A DNA stretch of 64,000 nucleotides. Source: Bolinopsis microptera (lineage: Eukaryota; Ctenophora; Tentaculata; Lobata; Bolinopsidae). The position numbers and the translations under genes are program-made. The notes under the pieces are model-generated. The model had not been told where the DNA came from and did no database searches. It worked only from the letters and a program-made list of their open reading frames with translations. Of the stretch, positions 31,403-64,000 are shown in pieces. Location of the stretch: NCBI RefSeq assembly GCF_026151205.1, contig NC_087079.1, positions 1,700,028-1,764,027 of the forward strand. The letters are read 5' to 3'. Positions within the stretch are counted from its first letter, which is position 1. Each line of letters starts with the position of its first letter.

Positions 31403-31606
31403 CGTATTGTTTCTCCCTAATTAAGTGATCAAATAGGTTGCCAAACGTATTGTTTCTCCCTAATTAAGTGACCAAATATGTTGCCAAACGTGTTGTTTCT
31501 CCCTAATTAAGTGACCAAATAGGTTGCCAAACGTATTGTTTCTCCCTAATTAAGTGACCAAATAGGTTGCCAAACGTATTTTTCTCCCTAATTAAGTGAC
31601 CAAATG
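31403..31606. repeat. 43-bp tandem repeat, almost five copies, just upstream of the PHD-LSM11 start
   Basis: The unit starts CGTATTGTTTCTCCCTAATT and ends GGTTGCCAAA. Copies begin at 31403, 31446, 31489, 31532 and 31575, with few differences. The last copy is cut after CCAAAT, and its final bases form the first possible ATG of the next gene (31604). There are no spacers, so it is not CRISPR-like. Confidence 0.95.
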
Positions 31607-31618
31607 CCTCTATTAGTC

Positions 31619-34600
31619 ATGACAACAGTTGAAAGTAAAGACTCGAGCAGCAGCGGCAGCAGTGGGAGCGAGTACAGCAGCAGTGGAAGTAGTGGCAGTG
31701 AATACTCTGGAGACTCTTCTGCTGATGACACTGACTCTGAGGTGAGATTAAAAGTTTGGTATTGGCGGCATCTCAGGAATTTGTCATGTTTTTGTTGGTC
31801 TATTAGCTGGTGTGTGAGGTTGCAATTGTTGGTAGATTTGTGTAAGACTGCTGTTCCTCAAGTTTGAAGTCTCCTCTGTTCTGCAATAATTCAACAAGGG
31901 CAAGCAGAAACAATAGCGGTTGCCATTAAATTTGCAGTTTATTAATGTTCTCTCATGGTCCATTGAGACTTAATAAGTAACGATTGAGCTTCTCAAACAA
32001 AAAGGGACAGCAATTAAATTTTGAAGCTTTCCCGGAAAGTGCTGAACAAAAAGCTCTGCTTAGCCGAGCTACTCAAGCGAATATTGCATACCTTACGAGA
32101 CATAGACAATATTTATGGTATTAGCGAGAGCTTCAGTAAGACTGAACTGTAGCCCAAAATAGACAATAAATGAATCAATACATTTACACTTAACAAAAAG
32201 GTCTGTAATTTTATACAAACTAACCGATTGTTTACCAAACGTGCAACTGCAATCAATGCGAGCGCAATTATCGCTGTCTTTAAAAAATACATTGAACCTG
32301 TTTGAATAGTGTTATTTTAATTATATCGAATTGTCTGCAAAATGGTACATTCAATAGGATATTCTGGCAAAGATGCAAACAAGATGATTTTATCTAATTT
32401 TAAAATACATGGCTGTTATTCTAACATTTTTTGTGTTATAATAATCATATTATGATAATAGTATAGTACACATCAGACGAAATATAAGACGAAATAAATA
32501 ATCCTCAGAAAATGTTTTCAAATCAACATAATAAATATCGCTTCAGTAAGAGTGAATTGTAGCCCAAAATAGACAGTAAAAGAATCAATACATACATGAA
32601 TTCAAATAACATGAATTCAAATAACTTGTATTCTATAGAATTTTCTACCCAAAAATGATAACAATGTCAAAATTCCAAACACTGTAGCTCCTGACTTCCT
32701 GTTTCTCGATTACTGTGGATTATTCTCATACCATTCTGGAGTCCTACACTTTCTCTTGAGCCAACTCCATTGTTTATAACTTGGACATTTGCCAGGCCTC
32801 GATACCATGACAAACGAGTTGTCTCCACAGCACCTACCCTGATTGAACAAGTCTCCTCCTGCCGGAGCACATGGCGTCTTCTGACCTGAAGAGGAAAAGA
32901 GAGTGAGCACGTGACCCACACTTTTTGTCACGTGGTATTAACTCAAACATCTGATCACCTTTTATTGGCTCCAAGACACATTCGAAAAACCTAGGTCCAG
33001 TCCTTGAATATGTAATAAATGTAAGGTGACTTAAACCGAGTGCAAAAAGTAAAAATACTCATTAAATAAAGGAAAAAGTGCAAAATTTAAACATATTTAC
33101 AATTAATAAAAAGGTCTGTAATTTTATACAGACTAACCGATTGTATACCAGACGTATTTGTCATTTATCTCTTGGTAACACAACTTTGACATTTCAGCCA
33201 AGTTCTTCTTGTCTTCTTCTGTCGCTTCAATGGTGGACGCAACTGCAATCAATGCGAGCACAATTATCGCTGTCTTTAAAAAACACATTGAACCTGTTTG
33301 AATAGTGTTATTTTAATTATATCGAATTGTCTGCAAAATTGTTTAATATAAAACAGACGAAATATAAGACGAAATAAATAATCATCAGAAAATGTTTTCA
33401 AATCAACATGATAAATATCGCTTCAGTAAGAGTGAACTGTAGCCCAAAATAGACAATAAAAGAATCAATACATACATGAATACACAGTACACACAATATC
33501 AATAATAAATAAATCAGTGGAAGCTTGAGAAGGTCTCAAGTGCTGAAAGCCACTGCTTAATGCTTATCTTTGGATTTGAGAGTGACATGTGCTACGTTAA
33601 TATACTTCTATTAAATTGTCTACCCAGAAATGATAATAATGTCTAACTTCCAAACACTACAGCTTCAGTCTTCTTGTTTCTTGATTACACTGGATTATTC
33701 TGGATTTTTCTCATACCACTCTGGAGGTCTACACGTTCTCTTGAGCATCTGCCAATCAGCGTAGCATGGACATCTTTTGATCGTTGCTATTATCCAAAAC
33801 TCCCTGTTTCCACAGCACCTGCCCTGCTGGCACATGTCGCCATCACGAATCATTGGCGTCTTCTCACCTGAAGTCCGAGAAAGGAGAGTGAGCACGTGAT
33901 CCACACTTTGTGTCGCGTGGTATTAACTCAAACACATTTTTTAAAACTAGGTCCAGTCCTTGGTATGTAATAAATGTAAGGTGACTTAATCCGAGTGTAA
34001 AAAGTAAAAATACTCATTAAATAAAGGAAAAAGTGCAAAATTTAAACATGTTTACACTTAATAAAAAGGTCTGTAATTTTATACAAACTAACCGATTGTA
34101 AACCAAAGGTATTTTTTATTATGCTCGTCCTCGATGTAACACCACTTTTCGATCTCAGCAAACTTCTTCTTGTCTTGTCTTGTCTTTTTAAAAGTGGACG
34201 CAACTGCAATCAATGCGAGCACAATTATCGCAGTCATTTCTCTCTTCGAAAATACAGGCCTTCTTTCCAGCAGGCGGAAAAGTCACCTGAACGAGAAAAA
34301 ATCAACACAAAACTTATCTCAAAAATTAGTAAGCCTTAACTACATCATGATACAGAGAATTGGTATTCCATGAAGTCAATTTTACCTTTTTTAAACCAGT
34401 CGAATTTATTTTCATCGCGATCGACGTCATAAATTGGGCACCAATTTTCCAGTTCGGGATATTTAAATCTTAAGCTTTCCTCGGGAGTTATGATGAACCC
34501 GTGTCTCTTCATATCAGTCCTTTCCTCTCTCCTCTGTTTCTTTTTTGCCTTTCTTTGTTCATCATCCTTCTTATCTATGGTTAAGACGTCGCCCACTAGA

Positions 34601-37600
34601 AGTACGATTATCAGTAGAATCAACAATGACAGTCTCCAACCGCCTTCAGCCATTTTAGCTTCATAATTAATTTTATTATACATCCATTATTGGGGCGTTT
34701 TCGCTAGAATATAAATTAGTTTGCAATTGCACTACTACTTTTTCAGTTTTGAGATAATGTTTAATGACATAAAATCTACACTAATTAAACCATATAATAT
34801 ATTATATGACCGCTCAAGATACTGCCGTTGGCAATAACAGATAACCGAGTCAACGTATTAATCAGTTTAAGACTGTGAAAGATCTATAATAACAAACTCA
34901 GCGTGACAATATTTACAAAACACGAAGAGAAATGTATTCATTATTAATACTCTGCCTTTTTAAAGCCCCGTGTCATTTCAAAGCATTCTAAACAATAAAG
35001 TGGTTCAGTACAACAGAGAAATAGTAAAACTTATTTTTAACTATTCGGCTGATGAGTTGCTATGAGGCTACGGAGCTTTTCCACAAGCTTTGATCGTTTC
35101 ATTTGTAATAATACAATTAATATTGAAATGTTTTCGACTTGTTGGCGCTGCCCTATTGAAAAACCAAAGTCTTTTATTCAAATTTCTGATTGTTTCTGAA
35201 TAGACTCAGTGAAGACAGATTCTAATGGAAATAAATAGCTGAATAACGTATCGACATTTCTACGTCATACTCATATTCTGAAATAGTATTAATTCAATTA
35301 TAACGATCAATATTCACATTAAAAATTTGACGACGAAATTTATTTCAAACAAAATATATAACTGTAAAATAGTTATCAACCGTAAATAGTTTTTAACGAA
35401 ATCGGAGCAAATATGAACATAAAACTGACAACATTTATCAAATAGGGCTCATCTGAAAATTAACGAATAGCGTGACTTTATACAGGAGATAAAAGATTAA
35501 AAGAGTAAAAGAGATAAAAGAATTAAACGAGAATATTACTATTTACACGTCACTCAACTAAAAACTGTGTTAGATTGTTCAACTCTGTTTTATCGTTGAG
35601 TGTTGGTTTATTTTCAACTAAAAATCGGGCTTCTTTAATCTTTCTGTTGATGAGTGATGTTCCTCTATCTACGATTTGAAGTTTAAGTTTTGGGGGGCCT
35701 TTGTGCTGAGGGTGACTTTCCCTGTAGTGCTTTGCTAGTGGCTTATCTTCGTAAGATTTTGCTGTTGGATTTGCCGCACTACGGTAATGCTCGTCGAACC
35801 TGCACTTGATCGGTCTGTATGTTTCCCCACCATAGTTCTCGGTACAATTGTCTACTTCGCAAGTGATGTGGTAGACGGTATTAGTTGTGGTGCATTCTCC
35901 ATCGGTTAAAGCTGCGCATGTTCTGCAGTTTGATGTTGTACAGGATTTCTTGTCAAGGGGTCTGGAGTCTGTAAGGAGATCCTTCAGTTTCCGTCCAGGT
36001 TTCTCGACAATTTTGATGGGGAGTCCACTATGTCTGACAGCATCTCTGTATTTGCGACTAGTAGCTTCGTTGACATAGGGTAGTTTGAGAATCGCTCCGT
36101 CTTGGTCTTTGTTCTGTACGTTCTGATTAATTCTCTTTCTACGTTTTCTCTTGTTCTTTATGGTTTCTAAGACTCTATCAGTGTAGCCGTTGTTGATGAG
36201 AAGTTTATCTATCATCTTTTCTGAGTACTTCTCGTTTTCTCTGTTGTTAGAGACTGCCTCTGCGGTGTTGTACATACTCTCAACAGTAGCATTCTTTGTA
36301 CGTGTTGTATGATGAGAGTTGTAGTGGAGGGTGAGTGGCTTTTTCTGTGGTTTTCTGTAGAGTCTAGAATGTACTATTCCATCTGAGTCGATCTTTATTT
36401 CCGTGTTGAGGAAGGGAACAAAGTCGTTCTGATTGTCAGGGTAGTCTACAGTTAGTTTGATAAGTTTGTCAGGATCTTGTTGTTCGATGAGGTTGCACAG
36501 TTGCTGAGCTTTTCGTCTGTTGGTGGTGGCTCCGTTTAGATCGTCGTAAAACCTGCTGTACAACATCAAACTGCAGAACATGCGCAGCTTTAACCGATGG
36601 AGAATGCACCACAACTAATACCGTCTACCACATCACTTGCGAAGTAGACAATTGTACCGAGAACTATGGTGGGGAAACATACAGACCGATCAAGTGCAGG
36701 TTCGACGAGCATTACCGTAGTGCGGCAAATCCAACAGCAAAATCTTACGAAGATAAGCCACTAGCAAAGCACTACAGGGAAAGTCACCCTCAGCACAAAG
36801 GCCCCCCAAAACTTAAACTTCAAATCGTAGATAGAGGAACATCACTCATCAACAGAAAGATTAAAGAAGCCCGATTTTTAGTTGAAAATAAACCAACACT
36901 CAACGATAAAACAGAGTTGAACAATCTAACACAGTTTTTAGTTGAGTGACGTGTAAATAGTAATATTCTCGTTTAATTCTTTTATCTCTTTTACTCTTTT
37001 AATCTTTTATCTCCTGTATAAAGTCACGCTATTCGTTAATTTTCAGATGAGCCCTATTTGATAAATGTTGTCAGTTTTATGTTCATATTTGCTCCGATTT
37101 CGTTAAAAACTATTTACGGTTGATAACTATTTTACAGTTATATATTTTGTTTGAAATAAATTTCGTCGTCAAATTTTTAATGTGAATATTGATCGTTATA
37201 ATTGAATTAATACTATTTCAGAATATGAGTATGACGTAGAAATGTCGATACGTTATTCAGCTATTTATTTCCATTAGAATCTGTCTTCACTGAGTCTATT
37301 CAGAAACAATCAGAAATTTGAATAAAAGAACTATCAAATCATGAGACTCAAAAACACTACACGAATCCACCAGATTAAACCAAAGTCTGTATTAAAAGAT
37401 TCATCAGGACTCAATAGATGAAAATATAAAAAGTTTCTGTAACGTTTTATACGGTTATATTACCGGAGCATTGTCTTTAATGTGCCTTATGGTTATTGGT
37501 TACATTTACTATGTTTTTACTAGTTCTTGATCGACTGTCCGGCGCGCTTCGTTTAGCTATAATTTTGTTCAGTAAGTTACAATATTGGCAAGTTTATTTG

Positions 37601-40600
37601 TTTCTTGTCCTACCTGTTCACCATAATATAATATATAATGGAAATATTCGTGCTGTCCGCATTTACAATAAACTTAACACCTTTCAGGAGTCTGATTCAG
37701 AAAGCCTATCTGATGACAATGTAAAGGAGAAGACGTGTCTATCTGTAAAACTCGCAACGAACGGAGATAACCTAGTTCCTCCTTGGCAGATTAACTGTGA
37801 ACCTACCCAATCTTCTGAAATAGATAAAAATAGTCAAGGCGGCAAGAAGATTCTGATCCAAGCAACCCGAGATCAGACGATGGTTAAATCAAGCTTACAG
37901 AAGTCAGTCACATTTCAAGGTTTGTCTCTACCTTTGTGGAAAAATTTTAGGACAAAATTAATACAAAAATGTAACTTTTATCTAGCTTCCTGTTGCATGC
38001 CTGAATAAACATTCCAGATTTTCCCCATTAATTTAGATTACTTTGATGATAATTATTATTTGTGAATCACTTACAGATCGTGATAAAATCACAGAAACAC
38101 GCAAAGAGTGTTTGGTTGGTGTTAACAAAAATATTGTGGCTTCCACCAACAAGTCCAACAAGACCAAGAGAGCACCTGTTGTTGCAACCACAATCTTGTC
38201 ACCTGATGTAGATAACTGTAGCTCTGATGTTTCAATGGAAGTTGATAAAGGAAAGGTTTGTGTACTATTCTTTTTATTTTCTTATTCCTGTCATCAAGTT
38301 TTGTTTTTCTTGAGATGAATCACAAATGGACTGTTCTGTTATGTGCTAAATTTAACGTGGACAAATTAATTGATTTCCTATACTATCTGATAAAGTTTTA
38401 CAAATGCTTCAGCTTAAAAACAGAAGTTTGGCAAAAGATTTTGATGACTTTGTTGAAACGAATACAAAATTCTCCGAGACTCCAGACACGATAAAAAAGC
38501 AGACCAATAAACCAACTTCCATCACAAAACACCCATCCTTGTCTGAAGACTTACTTGCGAAAGCATCTTCTGATATTCCAGACCACCCTATGGACCATCC
38601 TAGCAACAAGGAAGTTACTGATCTTTCGACTAAAACTACAGATAAATCGTCACGTAAAACGAGAGATGTCACTCGCACTAAAACGAAGGTTGCTGTAACA
38701 TCTTCAGGAATTTCAAAGGATGTCTCGGAGGATGTCTCGGAGGATGTCTCGGGTGTGGGAACATCTGGTGCTGCTGAAGATGCTGCTGAAGATACTGCGG
38801 AAGAGTTTTGTTCCTGTAGAGGAGAGGAGTATGGACTGATGGTTCAGTGCGAGAAATGCTCTGAGTGGTAAGATCCACTTTTTAATTGACAGCAGTGCTA
38901 ATTAGCTATATTTTAGGGAACCTTCCCAACGTTTGGGAATTTTTCCCAACTTTCTCAACGTTTGGTTGTACCATTTAAAACCGATCGAGATTTGGACGAA
39001 GTGTCTCAACTTCCCATTTTTAGAGCACTTAATTTTGTCCTCACAGGTATCACAACGGGTGTTTGGATCTGACTAAGCTTCAGATTGAAAATATTGAGGT
39101 TTTCTACTGCACAACTTGTCATTCTGTTGACTATCAGCTCGTTACTATTACCAAAACAAATATACAGCCTGCAAATATACTCGAGGTTTGTATTTTTGAT
39201 TCGATATTAAATTAATATCTAAGAATACTGTCCACTTTTTGTAAAACGTCATTTTGAAAGATATCGGTTGTGTTATGAGATTTAATTTTTAAATTTTGTA
39301 TTAACTAATACACAACTAATGTTAATAATTTTCAGCGTTCGAACGAATTTCCATTAACAAAGATTGATCAGATGGTGAAGAATGCCATCTCATCACAAAA
39401 TGAAGATATTCAACCGGCTACGTCACCTGAGTTGTTTCCGGAACTCCCTTCCGATAATATCCAGGTGCAACCATTTCCTACGGAAACTAAAATACATCAA
39501 TCAGAAACAAGTGTCTCTGAAGGCAAAGTTGCTGAGGGTGATGACAAGGGGTCCTCTGACGAAGAATGGGTAGATATTGCAGTGGAAAACGATTCTGACT
39601 TAAAGTCCTCTTCGACAGAACCTTCTGTTAATTTCATTGCTCGAACGAAGGAGATGCTAGCCAAGAAACCACTTGCATCGGAGGGGAATACTGTAGTTCT
39701 TCCGGTTACCAGTCCCATGGATTTGAAAAGAAACGAATTTTGGGATGAAAACTTTTACAAGCCCCACATAAACGAAGATCTCTCAAGTTGTTTTAGTCAG
39801 ATGTCCATTGACTGGGAAAGTGCAAGAAAGATTTTCTGTCAGTCTACAATTTCGCCTTTGAAAGATGGAAAAACCGATGGAAAATCCTATAGTCAAGCCC
39901 CCAAAACTCCTCTCAGAGGCTCTGCACAAAACACTAGAAGAGAGCTGCTGAATGATCCAACAACTCCAACACGTGCACAGTTTGTACCCACTCCTGCAGA
40001 TCCTGAGGTAATGAAGATATTTGAGAGGAGTCTACTCGTGAGCCCATGCAAAAAGATGGTCCGGCCAATAGACCATCCCTCCCGCCGGTTAAGTCTTATC
40101 AAAATAGACGACCAAGTCACCATGAACTTCGGGAAAAGTCCCTCTCCTGTTACCGCGAGAGAAATGGGGAGGAAACTTTTCTCTGGAAAACTTGATTGGA
40201 ATTCTCATAACACGAATGAAAAAGAGAATTCCACTCCAAAAACACCCACGAAAGTACAAAAAACAAAGGCAGCAAGAAACCCTTTGTTTTCTGACAAACC
40301 TCTCGATAAAGCTTGGGCAAAAGGGTTGGATGAAATAAAGGGTGACTATCCTTTTTACTCTTTAAAGAAGAATCAACAAACTGAAGTAGAAACGAACAAG
40401 AACACAGCAAAAGTTGACCATACCAAAAATATCAGAGAAAGTTCACCAGAAATAGATGCAGCAAAACAAAGTACACCAGAGCTTTCGACGACTCCTAAGA
40501 AAAGCAAAGTGGATGACTCACATCTTTTCAAAACTCCCACCAAGTCAGTTAGGAGAATGAGGAAGAAATCCGTGTCTAGTGACCGTCAGAGTGGAGGTTG

Positions 40601-43600
40601 GTCCCCTGGTGCCAGGTTGCTAGAGCACAGCTGTCCCTACGATCCTACTGAATCTGGTTGCTATTCACAAACCATCGACTCTCAGACCCCTATTAAAGTT
40701 CCTTTAGCGCCAACGTTGGATTCAATTACCAAATATTCGCCTGGAGCTAAGAAAACTCCAAACAGTCAAAATAGCTCAATAAACTTTTGTGATTCACGGT
40801 CATTTGAAATCGAATTTGAAGATTTAGAGCCCAGTATCAAGTCAAATAAATCCCCACCCATATCAAGTGAATCCAATGTGACCGTTAAAACAATTCTACC
40901 AAAGCTCTTTGGCCATCTCGAAAAAACGTCACATTTCACGAGCAGGAAATGGTCTGGTAATAACGAAAAGTCTTCTGTAGAAATTGCGAAGGATCCTGAA
41001 ATGGATGAGTCAGCTGAACCATGTTTGTTACAGAAATATCCTGAGACTGACAAATCTGCTAGTGTTCACTTGAGCGAAAAGAAATCTCCGTCGAAAAGCA
41101 TGAAAGATGTGCCGAGCTTTATTGAGGGACCTGTCGAGGATACTTTAGATTTTGAAGAAAACGAAACTTCGCCAGACACTTCCGCTAAGAATGTTCTGAT
41201 TGGATATGGAAGTGAGTTTTGTGATGAAGGAGAGGTTTTTTCATCTGACGATGACGAAAATATGTTTAGTGACTTAAGAGCAGCTCAAAGGAATGCTCTG
41301 CGTGACAGCCCCGAGACTTCTAAAACTCACAAAACTAACTCTTCGTCCTATCAGAAGGCAAAAGAATTGAGAAACGCTCATTTGAATCAAATAGGCAGTG
41401 ATCTTTCAAAAAATAATACCTCAAATAAAACTAAAAGCAACAGTCAAACGGATGATACCAAGTTGTTGGCTGACAAAGAATTTTTGGAAAGAAACAAGGT
41501 TAAGTACACCTCTGAAAATTCTGTAATGACGACTAAACCAGATGAACCAAAAGGACAAGAGTCTTCTAGCAGCGATTTTAAAAAGTCCTTACCATTTACA
41601 TTCCAACCAATAGCTGTTCATTCCTTGCCAACAGCTCCAAATGCAGAGGCCTCCACTACTGTTAAAAAACCTTTTGCTTCGACTCCGAGAAAATCTTTAG
41701 AGGAAAGATGTGATACACCCTTGTCAGCTTTGCATGAGCAAGACAATGAAGACCTGCCTATGAATCCAGTTTCTCCTGATTCTTACGCCCATAGCCCAGC
41801 ATCCGACAGTAATCCGATAACTGAGAACTCTGTTTCTAATAATAAAAATCCCGGAAAATCCACTTTAAATGTAATTCTGAAAAAGTCTCAGACTTTTCAG
41901 AACGATTCTTCCGATCTGAAATCAGGACTGGTTGACCATGAAACAAAAACGCAGGATTGCACAACTGATATTAATCAGATTCTGATAAGCTGTGAGACTC
42001 TATCCAACCCCTCGGTTACCCGACCCTTGCCCATAACACCAGACGAGGATGAGGACGCTACTTTAAGAAAAGAAGAACCGTCATTATCAGTCAATTATAA
42101 TAGCAAAGCTGAAACTCCTCAGATGAGCAAATTCTTATCGAGTGATGAAATACTACCTTATACCCCCAAAGGACCGATTCAGTCCATCCAACAAACAGAA
42201 ACTCCACTCTCTGCTGCTTTTGTTTATAAGCATGTCGCGAAAACAAACGTCGGAAAGATACAATCTGACGTTGAACCGCTATCTCATTCCCATCATGAAG
42301 AAGTCAGACCACAAGAAAGCACTCCCACTGTAAACTTTTTGTTGAGCTCTGAAGAAACCATGTCCAATTGGACTCCCGAGCCCAGTCCTACAGATTCTCC
42401 TTCGTCTGACCCCATGGATTCCATGCCAGCTAGAAGGAGAATCTCCTTACACGATTATGTTATCCGAAAAGAAACTGTCTGTAACACTCCTGCTTTGCCG
42501 GACTGCTCATTTTCCACCCCCGAATTTGCTAAAAGTAATGATCTTGTTGCCGAATCCCCCTTGGCTGTCGAGCACGACTCTCGTGATCTTGAATGCACTC
42601 AATCTCCTATCTCAATGGAACATGAACTGATATCTCAAACTCCGGAAACTTCTTCAAAACGTGGAGAGCTGGTGGCGAAGTTAAAGTACCATCATCTCAT
42701 ACCTATATATATACCACCTCGGGAGTTTCTGTACTGTAGAAGAGTGAAGATGATCCAAAACATGCTGATCAATGAGCTGATTGGTGGAGCTGAGTTTAAG
42801 AGTTGCCAGCCAATAACACAACCTCTGTATGGTACCCGAGCTGAGTCCGGGGAGCAACCCGACAGACCAGCAGCTAGATCAGAGATAGTGCAGATGATCC
42901 AACCTTCTGATACCAACCAAAGTGACCAGATAGTCTCCCAACCTCCCACTATTCTCCAGCAACAGTTCGCTCCTGTTAGCACCAGAACACCTGAATCCTC
43001 TATTTTATCCTCTAGTGTATCTAAACATGCTGCTCCTGCTGAACAAACTGCTCCCGCTAAACCTGTGCTCAGTTCAAAACCAATGCTGCCCAGTGTTGTG
43101 CAACCTGGTGATCCTCGTACTTCAAAAACAAAAGATGTTACTGATAATTCAGGTATGGGTAATGCTAAGCTTCACGATGATGAATCTCACGATTACTTCA
43201 AGAATGTCAAGATTCCCAAAGTCAAGCGAGTAACCGATACGTTCATGTCAGATTCTAGCGTTCTGAACAGCTATGATTGCGGTCCTGATACTATTGCGGT
43301 TGGGAATATGATTCAACAGTCAATGGCTAATGATGCCTCCTCAGTGAGTCTAGATTCCATTGATAGACCATCGACATCTCTCAACAGTTCCACTGCTCCA
43401 AGTAGTGGAGTTGTTAGCAGGATTACCTCTAACTTGGGAACCTCAGATCAAGCCGTCATACCGTCTGTTGTTCCATACTCTACTCAAAATACAACGTCTA
43501 GAAGTTCAAATGATTTAGAAATGATCAGTAGTTACGTGAAGCAATGTCTATTTTCTGATGAAGGAATTTCGAAAAGCCCGATCATGCCCAGTTCAAGCCA

Positions 43601-46513
43601 ACAGAGTGGGGAAGAATGTGGTTCCAGCTTTCCTGCAAGTGACAGCCCATACAATACTACCTCCAATCAAAGCCGGGGGAAATCTTCATTTATTATCACT
43701 CACCCGTCAGGTTCTGCTGCTAAAGATTTAAACGTATCCCATAGCTCCCCAACATCTCTTGATAGGAACCCTCAATCAGTTCTTGAGGAACCTTACATCG
43801 CAGCACTGAGTCCGTCTTCCGAGGTTCACTCAGATAATCTTACGTCTGGTTTAGTTGATCCTTTTCCAGTGATGCACAAGGAAGAGGATGTCGTGGATGA
43901 AAATGCACGAGGTGAAACGACTGAGATATATGTTGAACCTGTTTTAAAAGTTCTTGTCAAAAAACCTCCCAAATTCAAAATACCAAAAAAGAAAACCCCT
44001 GCACCCTGCACCTCCCCTTCTCCAGACCCTCTCCTTACATCACCCAGGAAGATCAAACAGTTCATTTCTTCATCCACCTCAGCCGAACAACCATCAGCAT
44101 CTACATTGTTCACACAAAGAAAGAAGAAGCAGCTCGATGTGATCATAACAAAGGAGCGTGCTCAACGTGAACAAGTTTTACAGGAATACTTGGGAAATGA
44201 GCAAGGAAATAAACCTGCTGAACTCCTAGACGAATCACTTAATTCTTCCCAGACACGCAAGAGAAGGAAGACAGATTCTCCAGAGCCACCGCACAAATTT
44301 GATTTAAGACACGTTCTCTCTTCTTCGAAAGTCTCCGCAAAGCCAGAGTGTAAGAGGACCAAACATAGGAGTACCGAGAGGAACAAAAGTAATGACTCCG
44401 AGATCGAGAAACGAAAATCTGAAAGAACCTCGAGAGAGTCCGATGAAAATACCAAGAAAAAATCCAAAGAAAAACGAGAGAAGGATCCTCAACTTGGCTT
44501 CAAAAGCAAGTTGTTTGACGCCCTTGCGGTTCTGAACACGAAAGAGCGAGCACTTAGAATTCCGGATAAAATGGCAGGGAGGCACGCCTCGTTAACTCAC
44601 TGGTTGGACAGTTGGAAAGATGACGAGGTAAGATTGAAGGAGTTGAGAACAACTCGACTTAAAATCAGAGACCCGAACTATCAACCCAGAGATTTGAGCA
44701 GGTTAAAGTTGAGCAACGTTCCCAAGACAGTCAAATTAAAACCCCAACCTGCCAAAAAGAAGGAGAGACGGGAGTTAACTTTGAATAAGGAGGATCCAGA
44801 GATTGTGTTCGGATGGAAGAATGCCAAACCAGACTCATGTCATATAAACATGTTTCCAGATCAGCAATCAGATACCACAAATACCCCAAATACCAGCAAA
44901 CCAGCCTCCATGAACCCTCTTCTTAATAAAGCTAATCCACGGATCAAAAAGAGCAATCCTCTCCTAAAAAAGAAGTCAGGAGGTGGTTACGGATCTAAGA
45001 TACAAGCTCCGAAGATATGGATAGAGTGTATAAAGAGAGCGGACGAGGCTCACTGTAATCCTAAACAGATCAGAAAGAAAACTGTGATAGACATCATGAC
45101 AAGTTAGTTTTTATCTGAACCAGTTTCACTGTCGGGTTTAAATTTAATTTTCTAATAAATCATTTTTATGAATTCTCTTTTTCGTAATAACCATTGTCTA
45201 TTTGTTATCTCAACTATATCCGTTATATTTTGTCGCTGAATAAAGCGAATAATTTGACACCAATCTTCTCTTTTCAGCCAAAACCTCTGGTCCCCTGAGC
45301 ACCCTACAAAGAGCACTGACTGCGAACGTTAAAGTTACAGTCATTACTAGGACCTTCAAAGGAATAAGGGGGGAATGTACCGGTTATCTTGTTGCTTATG
45401 ACAGATTCATGAACCTGGTAAGCAGAACCAACTCCTGAAACTCACTTTATCCACTTTATCCACTTCACCTTTCTTTTATAGCCTTAGCAATGATGACTGT
45501 ACACATTTTCGTTTGAAATTCTCTTCAGCAACGTCACGATTTGAAATATTTTAATTTGAAACAACAATTATTTTAACTTAACCACCATCTCCAGGCGTTG
45601 TCGGATGTAACAGAGCACTATAGAAGCTTGTACCACAACATGCCCGATGAAGACAAGGAGAAACAGCAATCTACCTCCCCAACCTTCTCCTCTGACGAGA
45701 AGTTCCAGTCTGATCCAACCTTTGTGGACTTCAAACGTTCCGTCACAGTTTCATTTGACCGGGATATGTTACAGGAGATCAAATCACCCTCCCAGTCTCC
45801 GGAGAGGACTGACACTAGCAAACAGGAGACAGTACTTGATAGAGGAGGTGTTAGGTCACCTGGTGATGTCGAGATGTCACCCGGTGCTAGCATAAGATCA
45901 CCCTCATTGTCTCCACCTTCATCAGAAAACAATTCACCTGGTGAGCACTCTCAGTATTTTTTAATTAAGCCTGGCTGTGAGTGTTTGTTGTACTATTAGC
46001 CTGGCATTTACATATTATGTATATAATTATTATTTTTTACTTTTGTTATCTTGACGCCACGTTTTTCGTACCAAGAGCATTGAAACCACATATTATTGCC
46101 TTTTAGTAATTTTTCTCCGATTTCAGCGAAACAACATATCACTAAAAAGAAGGGCAGGACTTTGCCTGGACTACTTGGATGGTCACGTATGACTCCCGAG
46201 CACAGAAAATTCAAGTGAGTATTTGGAACTTTAAGTTTATCCTTAATTTTATGGACTGTTTAGGACTTCATTTTGTGGCGACTGCATAAATAACACCAGC
46301 AGTCCCTTGGTTTTATTTAGATCTTACTCTTTAAAGTTTCGTTCAACTTCAAGTAACTTCAATATTTTAGAAACATCTTGATGTGCGACTATTACAAACC
46401 ATCTGATATAACTCTTAATTTGCAGGTACACGAAGAACTGTATAACGACCCGATACTGTAAACAAGTCTTCCTTCGCGGAGACAACATCGTCCTAGTCAG
46501 ATTAGTCGAATAG
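31619..46513 (+). CDS. LSM11: PHD finger-LSM11 fusion: giant U7 snRNP LSm11-like protein
   Basis: Ten exons: 31619-31741, 37688-37919, 38077-38255, 38413-38867, 39047-39185, 39336-45102, 45278-45417, 45595-45940, 46127-46214 and 46426-46513, about 2518 residues, in frame throughout. Residues 1-180 are acidic Ser-rich. Residues ~310-355 form a PHD finger split over exons 4-5 (CSCRGEEYG, MVQCEKCSEW, then YHNGCLDLT and VFYCTTCH). Exon 6, 5.8 kb, is disordered and dense in S/T-P sites. Its end (FKSKLFDALAVL) may match the LSM11 N-terminus. Sm1 (VITRTFKGIRGECTGYL, then AYDRFMNLALSDVTEHYR) and Sm2 (QVFLRGDNIVLVRL) are split by a long insert, as in LSM11. LSM11 with LSM10 replaces SmD1/D2 in the U7 snRNP that cuts histone pre-mRNA. 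Human LSM11 is 360 aa with no PHD. Exon 1 is the least certain exon: 5.9 kb away, phase 0, and with matching composition. Confidence 0.82.
32225..32292 (-). pseudogene. Remnant of a signal-peptide exon of the Cys-rich family
   Basis: On the minus strand an ATG at 32292 starts a signal-peptide region almost identical to that of the gene at 32710-33288. About 83 bp of the mature part is then missing, and the frame no longer fits the shared GTTAG splice donor. No exon 2 follows at lower coordinates. It is a decayed third copy of the tandem unit. Confidence 0.7.
32710..33288 (-). CDS. Small secreted Cys-rich protein, copy B
   Basis: Exon 1 33288-33138 and exon 2 32885-32710 (minus strand) join in phase 1 to give 108 residues. 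A signal peptide (FLKTAIIVLALIAVAST) is followed by an acidic stretch, one Cys in exon 1, and five Cys in exon 2 with the pattern PCAP, GRCCGD, GKCPS, KRKCR. A conserved end reads TPEWYENNP. Six Cys would allow three disulfides. I do not recognise the family. It lies in the first intron of PHD-LSM11 on the opposite strand and is a tandem paralogue of copy C. Intron and flanks are almost identical between B and C, but the mature proteins differ widely. A defensive or venom-like role is possible but not shown. Confidence 0.7.
33695..34237 (-). CDS. Small secreted Cys-rich protein, copy C
   Basis: Exon 1 34237-34093 and exon 2 33867-33695 (minus strand) join in phase 1 to give 105 residues. The hydrophobic start TAIIVLALIAVAST equals that of copy B but lacks B's first residues. 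Exon 1 has one Cys (KWCYI), and exon 2 has six (DMCQQ, GRCCGN, KRCPCY, KRTCR), seven in all. The odd number suggests a free or intermolecular Cys. The tail PPEWYEKNP is shared with B. The ATG overlaps the TGA of copy D by the bases ATGA, inside an exon that has its own splice acceptor at 34287. Family and function are unknown. Confidence 0.65.
34234..34653 (-). CDS. Secreted paralogue D with shortened second exon
   Basis: Exon 1 34653-34386 and a short second exon 34286-34234 (minus strand), phase 1, give 106 residues. The N-terminus has a strong signal or anchor segment (WRLSLLILLIIVLLVG), then a Lys/Arg/Glu-rich stretch (KAKKKQRREERTD). A block ENWCPIYDVDRDENKFDWF follows, which aligns with the end of exon 1 in copies B and C and uses the same donor phase. 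The second exon adds only DFSACWKEG and a few residues before TGA. It thus lacks the Cys-rich module and appears to be the head of an older family member whose exon 2 was cut and fused to copy C's first exon. Confidence 0.55.
34654..35169. other. Gene-free part of PHD-LSM11 intron 1
   Basis: AT-rich. It should contain the promoter of the minus-strand Cys-rich genes. Nothing further is recognised. Confidence 0.4.
35170..35943 (-). repeat. Penelope inverted arm, left
   Basis: The reverse complement of 36556-37329, aligning without gaps (paired coordinates sum to 72499). The outer end is TCTTTTATTC, the inner end GTACAG. Confidence 0.9.
35550..36555 (-). pseudogene. Penelope-like element ORF: RT end + GIY-YIG endonuclease
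   Basis: The protein begins within the RT palm/thumb (SRFYDDLNG, then FVPFLNTEIKID and the GIVHSRLYRKP block of Penelope RTs). It continues through a linker with NKRKRRKRIN and a Cys-rich CTTSNCRTCAAL. It ends with a GIY-YIG domain: TVYHITCEVDNC, then YGGETYRPIKCRFDEHYR. The fingers and catalytic YxDD region are absent. The open frame runs ~20 codons further, to 36614, into the inverted arm; those residues are not original. TGA lies at 35550-35552. Penelope elements prime reverse transcription with the GIY-YIG nick. Confidence 0.82.
36556..37329 (+). repeat. Penelope inverted arm, right (carries a second GIY-YIG fragment)
   Basis: The inverted copy encodes the GIY-YIG end of the ORF on the plus strand, finishing with TGA at 36947-36949, but has no start of its own. 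Confidence 0.9.
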
Positions 46514-47888: not shown

Positions 47889-50800
47889 CTAGTAGATTTC
47901 ATTTAGATGTATGCTGCCTATATAATACAAAATCAGTCCTTTGAGTTTCACTGATTCCCTCCGTTCCACAATGTTTCTTTTCTTTACTCCAGCTCCCTGT
48001 AATGATTAGTTTAACATATCAGTAATTTTGTCATGAACTGTGATATTCCCTACCCCCTATACTGTGTAGGGAAGTAAGATACGATCACACTAACCAACTC
48101 TATGTTCGCCTTCTACATTTTATTGAAATGTAACATTATAAAACATTATATAATATTATATAACATAACATTATATAACATAACATTATACAACATTATA
48201 ATGGAATGTGAAAATGGAAATAAGTACGTACACAACGTTAGCTTCATCCTCAGTGAATATCTTGATAAGGAAGTCTCCTTCCACATCCTGTTCGAAGGTT
48301 GAGGGTATCACCACGTACGTTCCAATTTCTAACTTGAACTTACCATAGATCTGAAACAAAGGTCATCAAATTAGAACACTTAAATTTGATATTCATTAAA
48401 ATAGCACACGACGATTTATATCTGTCAGGATTCCCGAAATAACTAATGGGAAGCTTTATGTGATATTAGCCAGTGTCAATCACTACCAAATACAAAAGTC
48501 TTTTTACCACGTTCTAGTAACCAATAGTAACCACTAGTAATCACTATAATCACTAAAAAAGTCTAGTAACCAATAGTAACCACTAGTAATCACTAGTAAC
48601 CACTACAAAAGTCTAGTAACCACTAGTAAAATCCCGTACCTGTCGGGTGTTTGTGTATTTTGTTTTCCCTGCAGTACTACTTCCTCTCTTAGATGCAAGT
48701 TTTCCTGTGTTCCCGTCTGGTACCTGAAGTGGTTTCAAATCTATTTTCAAAATTGACTTGAGACTTATTTATTATTGGAATTGGTAAATCCTAGAAACTT
48801 CATTTCAAGGTTTCTGAATCTATGATTTGGGTCTGTTGCACACCTTAAAGATTCTGTATCCAATAGTGAGGTTCTCCCTGTCCTCAATCCTCAGATCCCT
48901 CTGTTCCAGAACAATCTGTACAGTCTCATCGTCCTCCTCCAGGATCACGAACTGCACTTGAGGGTTGGTGAAGTAGGATTGGGGGTTGTTGGCGCACCCT
49001 CCTGCAGTCTCTCCTGCTACCCACGCTCCTCGTATCTCCTTCATGTGCCACTGTGGGGATAATGAGAGGATTAAAATATTTATAACAGAAACAAGTCCTT
49101 CCATTAGAACGGCCCTCCTTGTAAAATCGAATTTTGAATATTAAGAAGTATAATCTTAGAAATGTGCGTTAAAGCTAACAATCTACGGGTATTGGTTTAC
49201 AAATGACACACTAACCTTCTTCCTTAAAAGACTGACATCAGTGTTTATTATTCTACAGAGGGTCACATTATCAAAGTTAGCGACCACATCATTGTACTCC
49301 ATCCAGAACTCTCCATCATCCTCATTTGAGAAGTCCAGCTCTTTCTTTTGCGAGTCTGATATCTCACCCCATTTTGGATCACTAGAAATGTCAGAGTTTA
49401 GTAACTTTTTTTAGTAGTGCAATATGTAAACTTCTGTGTGATTTAACAGCCAAACAAAAATAATATGGTTAACTTGGATAAATTTTAGAAGACATACTCG
49501 TCGCTCCATTTGCCCTTCCATTCAGTGTCTCCCCAGGGGTTCCTGATCTTCACCAGTTTGTGTTTGCCATCCATACCAAGGAACCCTAACGATAACTGAA
49601 AACAATGGACACGGTGATCATTTCAGTAGTTAGTTTTACTTGTCATATTCAAAGCTATCATGTAGTGAATCCCCCCACCCCTCTCATGTAGTGAGGCCCC
49701 ACAACATCTCTCAAACGTACCTCGTAACATCTAATAATAGTGTAAGCGTGTCCTACAATAAGACCATTATCCCTCTTAGATTCACTCCCCTCTCCAGCCT
49801 GTATCACCATACTAGCATTGACCAGAGAATCTCGGGACAGGGCTTTGTGGAGATCTTTGAACAGTTCAGCTCGAGCTTCCTCGTCGTCATGGATATTAGC
49901 TTTTTTGAAGTCTACGTACTGACTGAAAGTCGACATTTAGAAGGGCCAATAAGCTAGATTATTTGGGTAATATCTGCATGACAATTAAATTTTTGTCATC
50001 CGGTAAAGGCAGTGGTAGTAACTCCATTAAAGCAGAATCTATAAAGCAGTATTACGAGTAGAAATTATTCAATTTCATCGTTTGATTTTATAGATATAAA
50101 ACCATTAGACCCCTGATGGCAGTCTGATAAATTCCCTACCTAACTCCGCCAGTAAGATCGGACAGAGCATCAGCTGAGGACCCTGAATCTAGAGCTTCGT
50201 AACTTCCTGCCAACCTAGAAACAGAACAATAATAATTAGAGACAGAACAAAAATTAGTTTATAAAGTTGTAGTGGTATTAAACTCCGAAAGTTTTTGTCA
50301 CATCGGGCATCGCTGTCGAATTTAAATTTTAGTGATTTTCTCCGTGCATTTCTCGATATGATTGCAGCTGTTGATGTGACAGAGTAACCGTGACGGTAAC
50401 CATAGGTAACCGTGACGGTAACCATAGGTAACCGTGACGGTAACCATGACGGTAACCATGACAGTAACTCACTTAGCATAAGCCTTCTCCAGGAAAGCAC
50501 ACCAGAACTCGTTAGGGTCCGCACTGTGCATGAAGGCGAGTCTTCCGTTCTTAGTTGGTAGGTAGTCGTCCACAACCACCTCTACCCACTCTCCAAACCG
50601 GTAGAATCTAAAGAGCAGGATTCCAGCGTGGTCCTCAGAGTTCAGTTCCTGTTTCTCTTGGTGGGGTATCACCTGTAATAATACCCGGGTAATTATCACT
50701 CAGTCAACCAAGTCATGAGATGATTTTAGGTACAGCTTTTAACTTGAGTGTAACTGTAAACATGATATTGGAAATGTGTACCTCTTTGACGAGTTCGTCG

Positions 50801-59682: not shown

Positions 59683-62600
59683 TCACTGGCTGAGCTGACA
59701 AAGCAGAGCAGTACCCTTTCCTATCCAGTGTTCCTGTGGCTTGTCAGAGGGTATCAAACACTTGATGACGAAGTTGGTGGAGTGACCCGTCGTGGACAGT
59801 GTTCCTGCTCTCTCAGCAGTTTTGTAGAGCGGACACTCGTACCTGTCTTCCTCCACCTCGTACTCTGGGTCTGGTAAGAGGTGCATCATCGGCATTGGTG
59901 GGTTCATCACTCCGTCTCTCGCGTCAGCAAGAACCATGTTGTCGTCGTCCCAGCTTGCAGAGTCGATGTAAAGACCATGAATGAGAACTCCGTCATCAGG
60001 GGAGGAGTAAGTATTGTCGTCGTACTTCTCATCTGCCATTTCAGCTGTTGCAACGTCTATTTGAGCTCGGTAATGTGGCGTGACTTCGAACCTGAACTTC
60101 AAAGCATCGATAGGTACATCGTATGTTCGGGCGAAGTTCTGGAGGGCACCGGTGATAAAACCTTGAGGGAAGAAGAAACCTGAGATCCAGAATGATTTGG
60201 GTTGTCCAATGTCCATCCATCTGGATATGAACTGTAATCTCAGTTCCAAATCTTTTACCCAAGACCCGAGAGGTTTCAACGAGGGATAAGCAGCATCAGC
60301 CCACATATCTGGAACCTGGTTGATCACAATAGAATCAAATATAGCCTCCAACTGGTCCGACATGACTGCTAAACCTTTTATAGCTTTCTGAATGTTGAGG
60401 AGTGAGCCTAATAGAACACCAAGCAGCTTGTTGAACCTGACTATCTCCTGAGAGAGGACAGTGGACAGAGAGTTTATCCTTCCCTTGCTGTCCGGCTCAA
60501 ACATTTCAGGTAGAGCATCATCAATGTCCAGTTTCTCTGGCAACTTGCTCAGGATTAGGGCCGCCATTTCGTCTACGATCTCATCGCTACTCTTTCCTGC
60601 ACCTCCGCTGATAAGTCTAGGCTGGACATCCAATATTGTGGTGATAATGGTCAAGGATTCCTTCTTCTGATATGAAATATTAGCATTATTGGACATGTCG
60701 AATATTGTAGGTGGGTCTATGATGGGGAGTTGTTCGATATACTCCTTGTAGGCGTCAAGAGAAGTTGATTCCAGTGGGTGGTACTTATCAGACGAACTGT
60801 AACAGTATCCCGCTTCTATTGTAGCAGGGCGGAAGAAACGGTTCAAAACAACTTTCAGAACCCTCTGATCCCATTCATCGGTAACCCTGCCTCCGTACGT
60901 GATCTCAGCAGTGATGAACTCCAGTGCATCCCAAGGCATCACTCCTTCGGCTGTGAACAGCTTGAAGTTGTCAATCGCACATTCACGGTCCGAGTCAGCA
61001 AACTCGTAGGGAATGTTGAAGGCCAGGGGACCGAACTTTCGTCGCTCCAACACCACAGCATGGAAGAAACAAATTCCGAAGATGATCTTGCACCAGTCAG
61101 TCTTGAGGATATGGTCCTCGAAGTCAGATTTAGTTAATTCACCAAACGCTCGTCTCATGTTTGACCTGAGACCCTTTGGAGGTTCGCTTGTAACTTTAAT
61201 ACCGTTTTGTAGAACAGAAACAGGGAAGAAGGGAGCGGGCATAGAACTCAGGAAGAGTCGGAAGTCGTCATGAATTTCGGCGTCAGGCGAAGAAAATTCT
61301 TTGATAATTTCTTCCATTGACAACATCCAAGATTTAGCAAGATGGCAATTTTGTAAGAAAATCCAGTCGCCGGTTTTCATTGCGGCAAAAATAAGTGTCT
61401 CCGCTACTGGACCCTGTCCTTGACCAAGCGATATGGCCTTGACCCGCTCATCGTAGTCTTGTTCTTTAGCAAATCGCATGAAAGCAGCCATTGGATCAGA
61501 GCCACTGGACAAAATAAATATAAGTGGTGCGAACTTTGACATATCCTGATAAAGTGCGGGTAGATTTGTTGGAGGAGTCTCCACAAATGCTGCTCCTAAA
61601 TTCTCAACCACAAATGTACTGAGGCACTCAATCAATGCCTCGGGTTTGAAGTACTTCACAAGGGTCAGTCTCTGGAATCCGTTGAGACGTTGTTTCCAGT
61701 GACCTTTAGGAGCCCCAGGCGGGATCTCTTCAGTGGACAGGTCCTCAGGAGGTGGTGGAACGTTCGGGACGTATCCTTGGAAGCTGAGCGGGTTCAGTTT
61801 CAGTTCGTACGATCCAACATTTACATGTACAGGAGTGAGTCTTATGTCATTTGTGATGCCCGCATATGTTGGCATTGCCTCTTCGATGTCAACAAGAAGG
61901 TTCCATGTTATTTCATCAAGGAAAGTGCACTGTTGTGGCTTTTTAGGTCTATCTTTTTCCAGTGGAGGTAGACCTCGGATGAAGAAGTTCCACTCTTCTG
62001 GAGTAATATTACCAGCTTGCTTCATGATCTCGACACATAACATGAAGCTGAAACAAACTTTGTGCCTTTCAAACAGACCACGACCAATGTTGTTGTACAT
62101 GGTCAAGGTGATGCCGTCAAGCAGAATTTGTAGCCGTTTCCCTAAATCGGAGCACTTTTCTGAGGTCTCGATAACTTTGACGAACAGAGAAGTGAAGTAT
62201 TTCAGAGAGTACTGGTACATGGGGTCTATGACAGAGAGATCAGCAGTAACAAAGTAGATAACAGACCCACGAGTTGCTACTGGAAGATATTTGGCTCGGG
62301 CTAGCGATATCTTTTCTTCGGTCTCCTCAGCTTCCTTCAGTCGGATGTTGATCTCCTTAGACATAACCTTGGAATCATTCAAAGTCTCTATGAGTTCCTC
62401 ATCGTCCAGGATGTTTCCTTCTGAATGGAACAACATCTTCAAAATCTTATCCTCAATATCCTTTAACTTCTGTTTATCAGCATTGATCTTCATAATAAGA
62501 GCATTTCTCTGCTCTTCCAGATCGGGGCGTTCAAGTCTTGTGACATCAGCAAGCAACTGATCCTCGAGACCCAGACGGGTTACAGTAAAGTTGATGATTG

Positions 62601-64000
62601 TGACCTTGATGAAAATCTCAGGCATGTAGTGAGGGTTGGAAAGCTTGCTGGTCATGTAGAATCTGAAATTCTTGTCATAGTCGACATCAGAATCTCCAAG
62701 ACGGATCAGAAGTCTGCCTCCTTGTACAAAGGTTTGCTTCAGCAGTATCGGCTCAAGAGCGGGATCCAGAGATTCTCCAACTTCTTCAATCAGCACTGGT
62801 AGTCCAATTCTTATAGCATTTTCCAAAGTTCTCAGCAAGTTTTTATCGGTAAGTTTGACAATTTTGAGGCCGTTTTTCCTCTCTCGTCCAACGATCCACC
62901 TGTTGGCCTGATCCTGGGGATCTATCATAAGGGGCCATCTGCGTCCCTTCGTCACAAGAACAGCATTCTCAGTTGAAACAGCATCTCTTGGTAGTCCTTC
63001 CAAATTCCACTGACGAATCTCAAACGGATCCGCCAGGGTAGTGACAAGAGAGAAGTCATCTGACACTGGAATGCCCAGTTCCTGACCCTTTACAATCCAC
63101 TCTTTGACAAGCATTTCACGGTATTGAGCAGTGAAAGGTCCGTAGTAAGCCACACAGGCACTTGCTATAAATACGTTACCCGCAACGTTATCAATCTCTT
63201 TCTGGAATATCTTGACAGTTTCATCCCATCGAACTTGTTCATCGCCCAAAGCTGTGACGAGTTTTCCTGCGCGTTTCAATCGGGCAGCGGTCAGAGCAAT
63301 GTTTTTCTGAAGGCTCTCTTTTGCTGCAACACTAGCATCAAATGAATCCTGAAGTTCTTTAATCTTGTCCTCCACCTCTTGAAGCGAAGCTTGCTTGAGG
63401 GCAAGCTCGGACTGTACCTCTGCCAGCTCAGCTTGGGCATTCACCAGCTTCTCTCGCTTAGGCTCAACAGTTCTGAAGACATGAGCGTAAGAATCTATAG
63501 CTCGCACCCACAGACAAAGAGATTTACAAGCTCTGGAAGTCTTCTCCACAATTTCGGGTACAAACTTCGGGTTGTCGATGTACTTTTTCAAGTTTCGTAG
63601 GATCTTATCAGGAATGTTATCCTTATCGTAGTTCACTAATCTGGACAAGAACTGAGTGTCACCAAGAAGCCCTTTAGCACTGGCCCAATCTGTTTTGTTG
63701 CCCATCAAGATGCACACAGCTTCCATTACTGTCAATACCATCTCGGGTGGGTTGGCAAACACTCTAACCTCAGCGATGTCAGATTTGTCCAGGGAGTCTA
63801 GGGCCTTGTTCGCAGCGTGCAGAAGAGGCAATGCTTCATCGAGATCTCTTTGGGCATCTTCTGCAATGGCTTCTGTTTCATCGGCCTTTTCTTTGGCGAT
63901 GGCTTCCTCCTCTGAGACAACAGCTCTGACTTTATCGGCTTCGATTTGATCTTTTTCAAGCTTCACCATCAAAATATCAGTGTCCTCGCTCTTTTTCTTC
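59683..64000 (-). CDS. DNAH6: Axonemal dynein heavy chain, DNAH6-type, C-terminal part (runs off the right edge)
   Basis: A single open frame of 1439 codons continuing past the window edge; the ATG at 63972 is internal, not a start. In order from the edge: stalk helix CC1 (IEADKVRAVVSEEEAIAKEK), microtubule-binding domain (~residues 60-190), and returning helix CC2. AAA5 has GLPRDAVSTENAV and RRWPLMIDPQDQANRW. The AAA5-AAA6 region includes LLIRLGDSDVDYDKNFRFYM and SEGNILDDEELIETL. AAA6 has SSGSDPMAAFMRFAKEQDY and ISLGQGQGP. The C-terminal domain has SLKPLGSWVKDL and FWISGFFFPQGF and ends with TLSTTGHSTNFV and ALLCQLSQ. These blocks fit human DNAH6 better than DNAH3/7/12 by memory, and the RAGTLSTTGHSTNFV and ALLCQLS end is DNAH6-like. 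DNAH6 is a single-headed inner-arm motor of cilia. The absence of introns over 4.3 kb is notable. Confidence 0.88.
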   Translation of the reverse strand, partial: KKKSEDTDILMVKLEKDQIEADKVRAVVSEEEAIAKEKADETEAIAEDAQRDLDEALPLLHAANKALDSLDKSDIAEVRVFANPPEMVLTVMEAVCILMGNKTDWASAKGLLGDTQFLSRLVNYDKDNIPDKILRNLKKYIDNPKFVPEIVEKTSRACKSLCLWVRAIDSYAHVFRTVEPKREKLVNAQAELAEVQSELALKQASLQEVEDKIKELQDSFDASVAAKESLQKNIALTAARLKRAGKLVTALGDEQVRWDETVKIFQKEIDNVAGNVFIASACVAYYGPFTAQYREMLVKEWIVKGQELGIPVSDDFSLVTTLADPFEIRQWNLEGLPRDAVSTENAVLVTKGRRWPLMIDPQDQANRWIVGRERKNGLKIVKLTDKNLLRTLENAIRIGLPVLIEEVGESLDPALEPILLKQTFVQGGRLLIRLGDSDVDYDKNFRFYMTSKLSNPHYMPEIFIKVTIINFTVTRLGLEDQLLADVTRLERPDLEEQRNALIMKINADKQKLKDIEDKILKMLFHSEGNILDDEELIETLNDSKVMSKEINIRLKEAEETEEKISLARAKYLPVATRGSVIYFVTADLSVIDPMYQYSLKYFTSLFVKVIETSEKCSDLGKRLQILLDGITLTMYNNIGRGLFERHKVCFSFMLCVEIMKQAGNITPEEWNFFIRGLPPLEKDRPKKPQQCTFLDEITWNLLVDIEEAMPTYAGITNDIRLTPVHVNVGSYELKLNPLSFQGYVPNVPPPPEDLSTEEIPPGAPKGHWKQRLNGFQRLTLVKYFKPEALIECLSTFVVENLGAAFVETPPTNLPALYQDMSKFAPLIFILSSGSDPMAAFMRFAKEQDYDERVKAISLGQGQGPVAETLIFAAMKTGDWIFLQNCHLAKSWMLSMEEIIKEFSSPDAEIHDDFRLFLSSMPAPFFPVSVLQNGIKVTSEPPKGLRSNMRRAFGELTKSDFEDHILKTDWCKIIFGICFFHAVVLERRKFGPLAFNIPYEFADSDRECAIDNFKLFTAEGVMPWDALEFITAEITYGGRVTDEWDQRVLKVVLNRFFRPATIEAGYCYSSSDKYHPLESTSLDAYKEYIEQLPIIDPPTIFDMSNNANISYQKKESLTIITTILDVQPRLISGGAGKSSDEIVDEMAALILSKLPEKLDIDDALPEMFEPDSKGRINSLSTVLSQEIVRFNKLLGVLLGSLLNIQKAIKGLAVMSDQLEAIFDSIVINQVPDMWADAAYPSLKPLGSWVKDLELRLQFISRWMDIGQPKSFWISGFFFPQGFITGALQNFARTYDVPIDALKFRFEVTPHYRAQIDVATAEMADEKYDDNTYSSPDDGVLIHGLYIDSASWDDDNMVLADARDGVMNPPMPMMHLLPDPEYEVEEDRYECPLYKTAERAGTLSTTGHSTNFVIKCLIPSDKPQEHWIGKGTALLCQLSQ

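Follow-up and report, generated by a model that had tools for sequence, protein, structure and literature searches.

A Bolinopsis microptera gene predicted to join a PHD finger in frame to the split Sm domain of LSM11

The Sm ring of the U7 snRNP contains LSM11 and LSM10 in place of SmD2. In animals, LSM11 is part of this ring and acts with FLASH to recruit the cleavage complex (PMC7026596, PMC5636114). FLASH binds the N-terminal extension of LSM11, at residues 20-50 of the human protein (PMC7026596), and the LSM11 helix that contacts CPSF73 comprises human R109, I110, R112, L113, R114 and L116 (PMC12774660). In the animals studied so far, the U7 snRNP comes together with NPAT and FLASH in histone locus bodies, close to histone genes, where cyclin E/CDK2 phosphorylates NPAT at multiple sites (PMC7432317). 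Human LSM11 is short, as a sequence-only reading of the locus described here had said (360 aa in PDB 8g1u; see also 6v4x), and its Sm domain is split, a long loop separating Sm1 from Sm2. In the open-access literature searched we found no paper on an LSM11 with a PHD finger and none joining a ctenophore with LSM11, U7 snRNA or histone pre-mRNA; likewise, no such fusion appeared in the titles and abstract openings of the papers found there that combine at least three of the subjects U7 snRNP, PHD finger, H3K4me3 and histone locus body.

The published assembly of the lobate ctenophore B. microptera has 13 chromosome-scale scaffolds and was annotated by its authors with RNA-seq and Iso-Seq (PMC10232365). 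The genome searched in this work comprised 264,652,675 bp in 232 contigs, and the window, i.e., the whole 64,000-nt stretch of DNA that was analyzed, corresponds to bases 1700028-1764027 of contig C8 (18,467,570 bp). Ten exons were assembled by eye from the DNA, and their splice sites, phases and stops were then tested by script. The features of the resulting gene are:

31604..31741, plus strand: exon 1, coding, Ser/Asp/Glu-rich; NCBI start ATG at 31604, next in-frame ATG at 31619
37688-37919, plus strand: exon 2, included in the spliced-model test
38077-38255, plus strand: exon 3, included in the spliced-model test
38413-38867, plus strand: exon 4, a low-complexity region followed by the first half of the PHD finger (C316, C318, C329 and C332 in P0001 numbering)
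39047-39185, plus strand: exon 5, second half of the PHD finger (H337, C340, C356 and C359)
39186..39335, plus strand: intron of 150 bp between the PHD exon and the linker exon
39336-45102, plus strand: exon 6, 5767 bp, a 1922-residue linker with 51 S/T-P sites and a disorder-promoting composition
about 44500-45102, plus strand: last part of exon 6, leading into the LSM11 Sm domain
45278-45417, plus strand: exon 7, first part of the LSM11 Sm1 motif
45595-45940, plus strand: exon 8, completing Sm1 with ALSDVTEHYR and continuing into the internal loop that parts the two Sm halves
46127-46214, plus strand: exon 9, end of the internal loop
46426-46513, plus strand: exon 10, Sm2 motif and stop codon

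All introns were of the GT-AG type, the incoming phases (0,0,1,0,2,0,1,0,1,2) agreed, and the only stop codon was terminal, with the plus-strand model (31604/31619-46513) forming a single frame of 2518 residues from the ATG at 31619. The intron between exons 4 and 5 interrupts the Trp codon of the CSEW motif. Across all six frames of the window, no stop-free stretch is longer than that of exon 6, at 1932 codons versus 1438 for the next. The model was 100% identical to an NCBI entry of 2523 aa, "uncharacterized protein LOC134819996 isoform X2 [Bolinopsis microptera]" (hereafter P0001), the sole difference being that P0001 starts five codons earlier, at 31604 rather than 31619. P0001 carries both PF01423 and PF00628; a protein with PHD and LSM11 domains is thus already present at NCBI, albeit unnamed. 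A chance origin of the fused frame was ruled out by the splice and phase agreement, the identical NCBI protein and the stop-free length of exon 6. The exon-by-exon rebuild bore out the earlier coordinates and description of the gene at 31619..46513, in which a PHD finger (exons 4-5) is joined in frame to the split Sm domain of LSM11 (exons 7-10) through a 5.8-kb open exon with agreeing splice phases; the joined frame is found in the ten-exon model and in the NCBI annotation alike, and all ten phases fit. Judged from the predicted frame, it is very probable that one gene encodes both domains.

The surrounding DNA contained several other features. A 43-bp tandem repeat (31403-31605; 4.7 copies, 96% matches) runs into the annotated start codon at 31604. 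Within intron 1, the region 32177-34238 holds five direct-repeat families spaced 880-996 nt apart and 83-97% alike, an apparent tandem duplication. Farther into the intron there is a perfect 774-nt inverted repeat (35170-35943 and 36556-37329; 100% complementary, 612 nt apart), which overlaps two opposed ORFs, 35550-36614 on the minus strand and 36491-36949 on the plus strand, whose C-terminal part is common to both. The minus-strand ORF gave a sub-threshold GIY-YIG match (E 0.051), and the element, named by eye, looks like a young Penelope-like retroelement. A 113-codon frame at 34345-34686 on the minus strand, with MAEGGWRLSLLILLIIVLLVGD and, by eye, a signal-peptide-like start, may be a small gene nested in intron 1; its Pfam matches were all sub-threshold (best 17.1 bits, cut-off 25.1). 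Directly downstream of and convergent with the LSM11 gene lie exons of a calpain gene (48820-49936, minus strand; Calpain_III and Peptidase_C2 above cut-off). Further long stop-free frames were seen at 59686-64000 on the minus strand (1438 codons, to the window end) and from 7576 onward on the plus strand (970 codons). A scan of 39000-39700 for bacterial-type promoters and terminators, which is uninformative for an animal gene, gave 2 promoter-like sites versus 2.0 in shuffled sequence and no terminator.

Exon 6 encodes 261 Ser and 142 Thr among its 1922 residues, and residues 382-2098 of P0001 are 55% disorder-promoting and 27% order-promoting by composition alone; the linker of about 1,900 residues thus looks mostly disordered. 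Its 51 S/T-P sites, 11 of which fit the full [ST]Px[KR] pattern, compare with 34.1 +/- 5.0 in 2000 composition-preserving shuffles, two of which reached 51. The sequence-only reading had proposed dozens of such sites in a cyclin-dependent-kinase pattern like that of NPAT. The dozens are there, above the 34 expected, but the excess is only moderate, and the resemblance to NPAT goes no further than an S/T-P content similar in kind. NPAT and FLASH are likewise large proteins, and their likeness to the Bolinopsis protein is one of size and S/T-P content only. A PDB search with a four-sequence linker profile returned no match at E <= 1, and a 75-residue piece preceding the Sm core gave weak matches only (best E 0.036, SPT16), which were rejected as homology to a known structure.

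The other three sequences of that profile are ENA proteins in which exon 6 recurs as a single ORF: P0002 (1976 aa), P0003 (1978 aa) and P0004 (2186 aa). Identity to P0001 over exon 6 was 56, 57 and 43%, respectively, and P0002 and P0003 were 89% identical to each other. Both P0002 and P0003 start M-F-Q-D-S, the first exon 6 residues aligning right after Q, as expected if the ORF caller had taken an ATG inside a TTTCAG acceptor (...ATGTTTCAG/, the slash marking the junction). At the other end, P0002 and P0003 stop one residue, and P0004 12 residues, after a conserved M-T-S, which is compatible, judged from protein letters, with read-through of a donor A/GT. Splice-junction compatibility was therefore seen in three of three sequences at the 3' end and in two of three at the 5' end, P0004 having a longer and different N-terminus that lacks the acceptor-like start. 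The comparison favours an internal position for exon 6 in at least two of these three sequences. By eye, the N-terminus of P0004 also shows a seeming tandem internal duplication around an acidic WES(F/S)DE(D/E)WV block where the linker exon begins. As regards the suggested check for PHD plus LSm11 in relatives, exon 6 was recovered in three more proteins but the PHD exon in none, these being single-ORF entries that exclude the sequence upstream of exon 6; a PHD fused to the LSM11 linker has so far been seen in one species only, B. microptera.

Conservation of the linker was patchy, with long variable stretches between islands that are nearly invariant among the four sequences (e.g., RNEFWDENFYKPHINEDLSSCFSQMS and YHHLIPIYIPPREFLYC), as a flexible scaffold bearing docking motifs would be expected to show. 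In the four-sequence alignment, 23 of the 51 S/T-P sites were kept in all sequences. The phospho-acceptor was kept at 28/51 S/T-P sites versus 117/353 other Ser or Thr residues, and the proline at 26/51 versus 46/112 other prolines, a weaker contrast than that for the acceptor. P0002 had no Pfam match at E <= 0.1.

The C-terminal part of the protein matched the Sm family PF01423 at 37.8 bits (cut-off 23.4), and the whole protein also passed, at 32.3 bits. Against human LSM11 (PDB 8g1u) it gave an E-value of 1.6e-18, with query residues 191-417 aligned and both Sm halves covered across the long loop; the next-best family in the PDB search was SmD2 (E 0.0029). In NCBIfam the sole hit, to an Sm family, stayed below threshold (18 bits, cut-off 101). 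The split Sm domain and long loop are shared with human LSM11, as are the blocks RTFKG.RG.CTG, AL(S/T)DV...YR and, near the C-terminus, F(L/I)RG(D/E)N(I/V)(V/L)LV, whereas the Bolinopsis protein differs in being about seven times longer, with its PHD finger and 1922-residue linker exon. When the Sm core was used as query against the same genome, all three matches at E <= 10 fell at this locus, so there is no sign in these sequences of a separate short LSM11 gene. A word-based protein-database search for stand-alone LSM11 relatives returned 11 candidates, none at E <= 0.001, a result that reflects the limits of the method and says nothing on whether other animals lack the fusion.

The human LSM11 segments that bind FLASH and CPSF73 were not recognised by alignment in the Bolinopsis protein. 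Residues 28-64 of human LSM11, which we presumed to hold the FLASH-binding segment, aligned best elsewhere in P0001-P0004, with the score reached by 10.7% of 300 shuffles for P0001 and by 83-88% for P0002-P0004. A motif of the form FD.[LIVM]..[LIVM], chosen after the human FDPLLAL, occurs once per sequence in all four, always at the corresponding position just ahead of the Sm core. This FDxLxxL-type motif recalls FDPLLAL of the human FLASH-binding segment and is only a lead, since the human segment aligns elsewhere and does not rise above shuffles. Human residues 1-125, aligned with no helix-specific shuffle control, were best matched in P0002 and P0003 over human 93-120 (score 44) and elsewhere in P0001 and P0004. 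Overall, we consider an LSM11 function likely.

The PHD fingers of CXXC1, PHF2, PHF8 and BPTF are readers of H3K4me3. The PHD piece of the Bolinopsis protein matched PF00628 at 30.3 bits (cut-off 24), the whole protein also passing at 27.4 bits, and all eight C4HC3 zinc ligands are present in order and spacing (C316, C318, C329, C332, H337, C340, C356, C359). Its best PDB match was CXXC1 (9c0o; E 4.6e-10), followed, among the best 60 of 65 sequences, by SHL, EBS, PHF2, SPP1 and BPTF, with PHF8 also among the nearest relatives by sequence. With the PHD fingers of CXXC1/CFP1 and the KDM7 proteins PHF2 and PHF8 it shares the C4HC3 layout and an M..C..C..W(Y/F)H core. In the alignment with PHF2, F315, M326 and W335 fall on Y, M and W, which we take to be methyl-lysine cage residues, and Y323 possibly occupies the fourth place; the PHF2 loop bearing the second tyrosine is two residues shorter in Bolinopsis. 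The earlier suggestion that this PHD resembles H3K4 readers therefore stands as regards its nearest relatives by sequence (CXXC1, SHL/EBS, PHF2), but the cage is matched only in part by alignment. A single-sequence structure model of an 80-residue P0001 piece, built for the aromatic cage, had a mean pLDDT of 43.5 and was discarded.

According to Pfam, the PHD is the only chromatin domain in the protein, a point of difference from CXXC1 and the KDM7 proteins. Separate CXXC1-like (L039) and KDM7-like (L038) genes, named by eye, are present in the same genome; they are among the other PHD matches, at 36-37% identity. The closest PHD fingers in the genome were at C14:161783-161950 (L035; 55% identity) and C9:4786173-4786340 (L036; 48%), and these two and the PHD of the LSM11 gene may form one local group. 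By eye, the PHD of L036 is followed by C2H2-like zinc fingers. Since the two are closer than the CXXC1-like loci, the PHD of the LSM11 gene is probably a paralogue from this small local group rather than a direct derivative of CXXC1.

The same genome was searched for the substrates and RNA of U7-type processing. A histone cluster (L020-L026) at about 1.77-1.96 Mb of contig C5 contains H1, H2A, H2B, H3 and H4 ORFs, identified by eye and, for H4 and H2B, also by signature. The histone stem-loop model RF00032 gave seven matches at E <= 0.001, all in one C5 stretch beside histone ORFs and two of them above the Rfam gathering score; among 14 control genomes, one (Lactococcus lactis) had matches, none over the cut-off. 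In four of the seven (three H4, one H2B), the stop codon was followed after 54-64 nt by a perfect 6-bp stem; the other three failed the perfect-stem test. The H4 and H2B stems read GGCTTT-TCTC/TCTT-AAAGCC and are followed by a common purine-rich element, TCAA(A/T)AAAGAAAAC. This combination is the substrate layout of U7-type processing, and the genome suits a U7 role for LSM11 because its histone genes carry 3' stem-loops. A U7 snRNA is expected to be about 60 nt long, with a 5' end complementary to TCAAAAAAGAAAAC and a site like AAUUUGUCU, the Sm site that is its hallmark. The best match of Rfam RF00066 in the genome was at C7:2315476 (27.0 bits, cut-off 34), followed by one of 21.4 bits, and at E <= 10 this model also matched 12 of 14 prokaryote controls; the C7 candidate, being below the cut-off and lacking AATTTGTCT, was rejected. 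Searching with the pattern TTTTCTTT..AATTTGTCT gave seven matches versus eight for the reversed control, none with a convincing 3' hairpin by eye, and these were also set aside.

The evidence for a single gene has to be weighed against tandem genes, a PHD-only gene made of exons 1-5 and an LSM11 gene starting in or just before exon 6, with the joined model, NCBI's included, being a prediction chimera. The NCBI name is merely "uncharacterized protein", the frame of exon 5 meets a stop after nine intronic codons, which would in principle allow a PHD-only end, and a polyadenylation-like ATTAAA lies at 39206 within the intron. That intron is just 150 bp, however, with phases agreeing across it, and P0002 and P0003 look to have an acceptor at the same point and phase, so that in these two exon 6 is unlikely to come first; we consider separate genes highly improbable. 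A single gene could also use an internal promoter or alternative start to yield, besides a minor long form, a short LSM11 lacking the PHD, and this short form would be the one acting with U7. The NCBI label of P0001, isoform X2, suggests that one or more others are annotated, and human LSM11 is just 360 aa long (8g1u). Set against this are the lack of any other LSM11 Sm match in the genome and the strongly conserved islands that the long linker keeps in four sequences, which make such an arrangement unlikely.

Even in a real fusion, the PHD might not read methyl-lysine and might instead bind unmodified H3 or another protein, or be structural, in which case there would be no H3K4me targeting. 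The partly matched cage and a loop two residues shorter than that of PHF2 would fit such a PHD; the cage tryptophan and methionine are nevertheless kept, and the nearest PDB relatives include the H3K4me3 readers CXXC1, PHF2, PHF8 and BPTF. We regard a non-reader PHD as a minority possibility, albeit one to be taken seriously.

Our preferred reading, to which we assign a probability of roughly 0.5 with its proposed chromatin link included, is that of a ctenophore LSM11 extended by a CXXC1/KDM7-like PHD finger and a long S/T-P-rich scaffold. Under this reading, the Sm domain would fill the LSM11 position of a U7 Sm ring acting in histone pre-mRNA cleavage, and the C-terminal part would be expected to act with FLASH in recruiting the cleavage complex, as animal LSM11 does. 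The PHD would bind the tail of H3, probably K4-methylated, at active histone genes, and once bound could keep the U7 particle close to its substrate; such tethering to methylated histone H3 is put forward tentatively, its odds falling a little short of even. The linker would serve as a flexible scaffold, and cell-cycle kinases could set the state of its conserved S/T-P sites. The complete proposal, in which one ctenophore protein is a core U7 snRNP subunit, a histone-mark reader and a CDK-tuned scaffold that tethers U7 to active histone-gene chromatin, is speculative and, taken in its entirety, rather unlikely to hold.

A fused PHD-LSM11 would covalently connect a chromatin mark with the U7 particle, and this coupling could be tested by a one-residue change, at the tryptophan of the PHD. 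If ctenophores are the sister group of all other animals, the fused arrangement could be the older one, later split. The locus would also provide a named gene with which to study histone mRNA processing in ctenophores.
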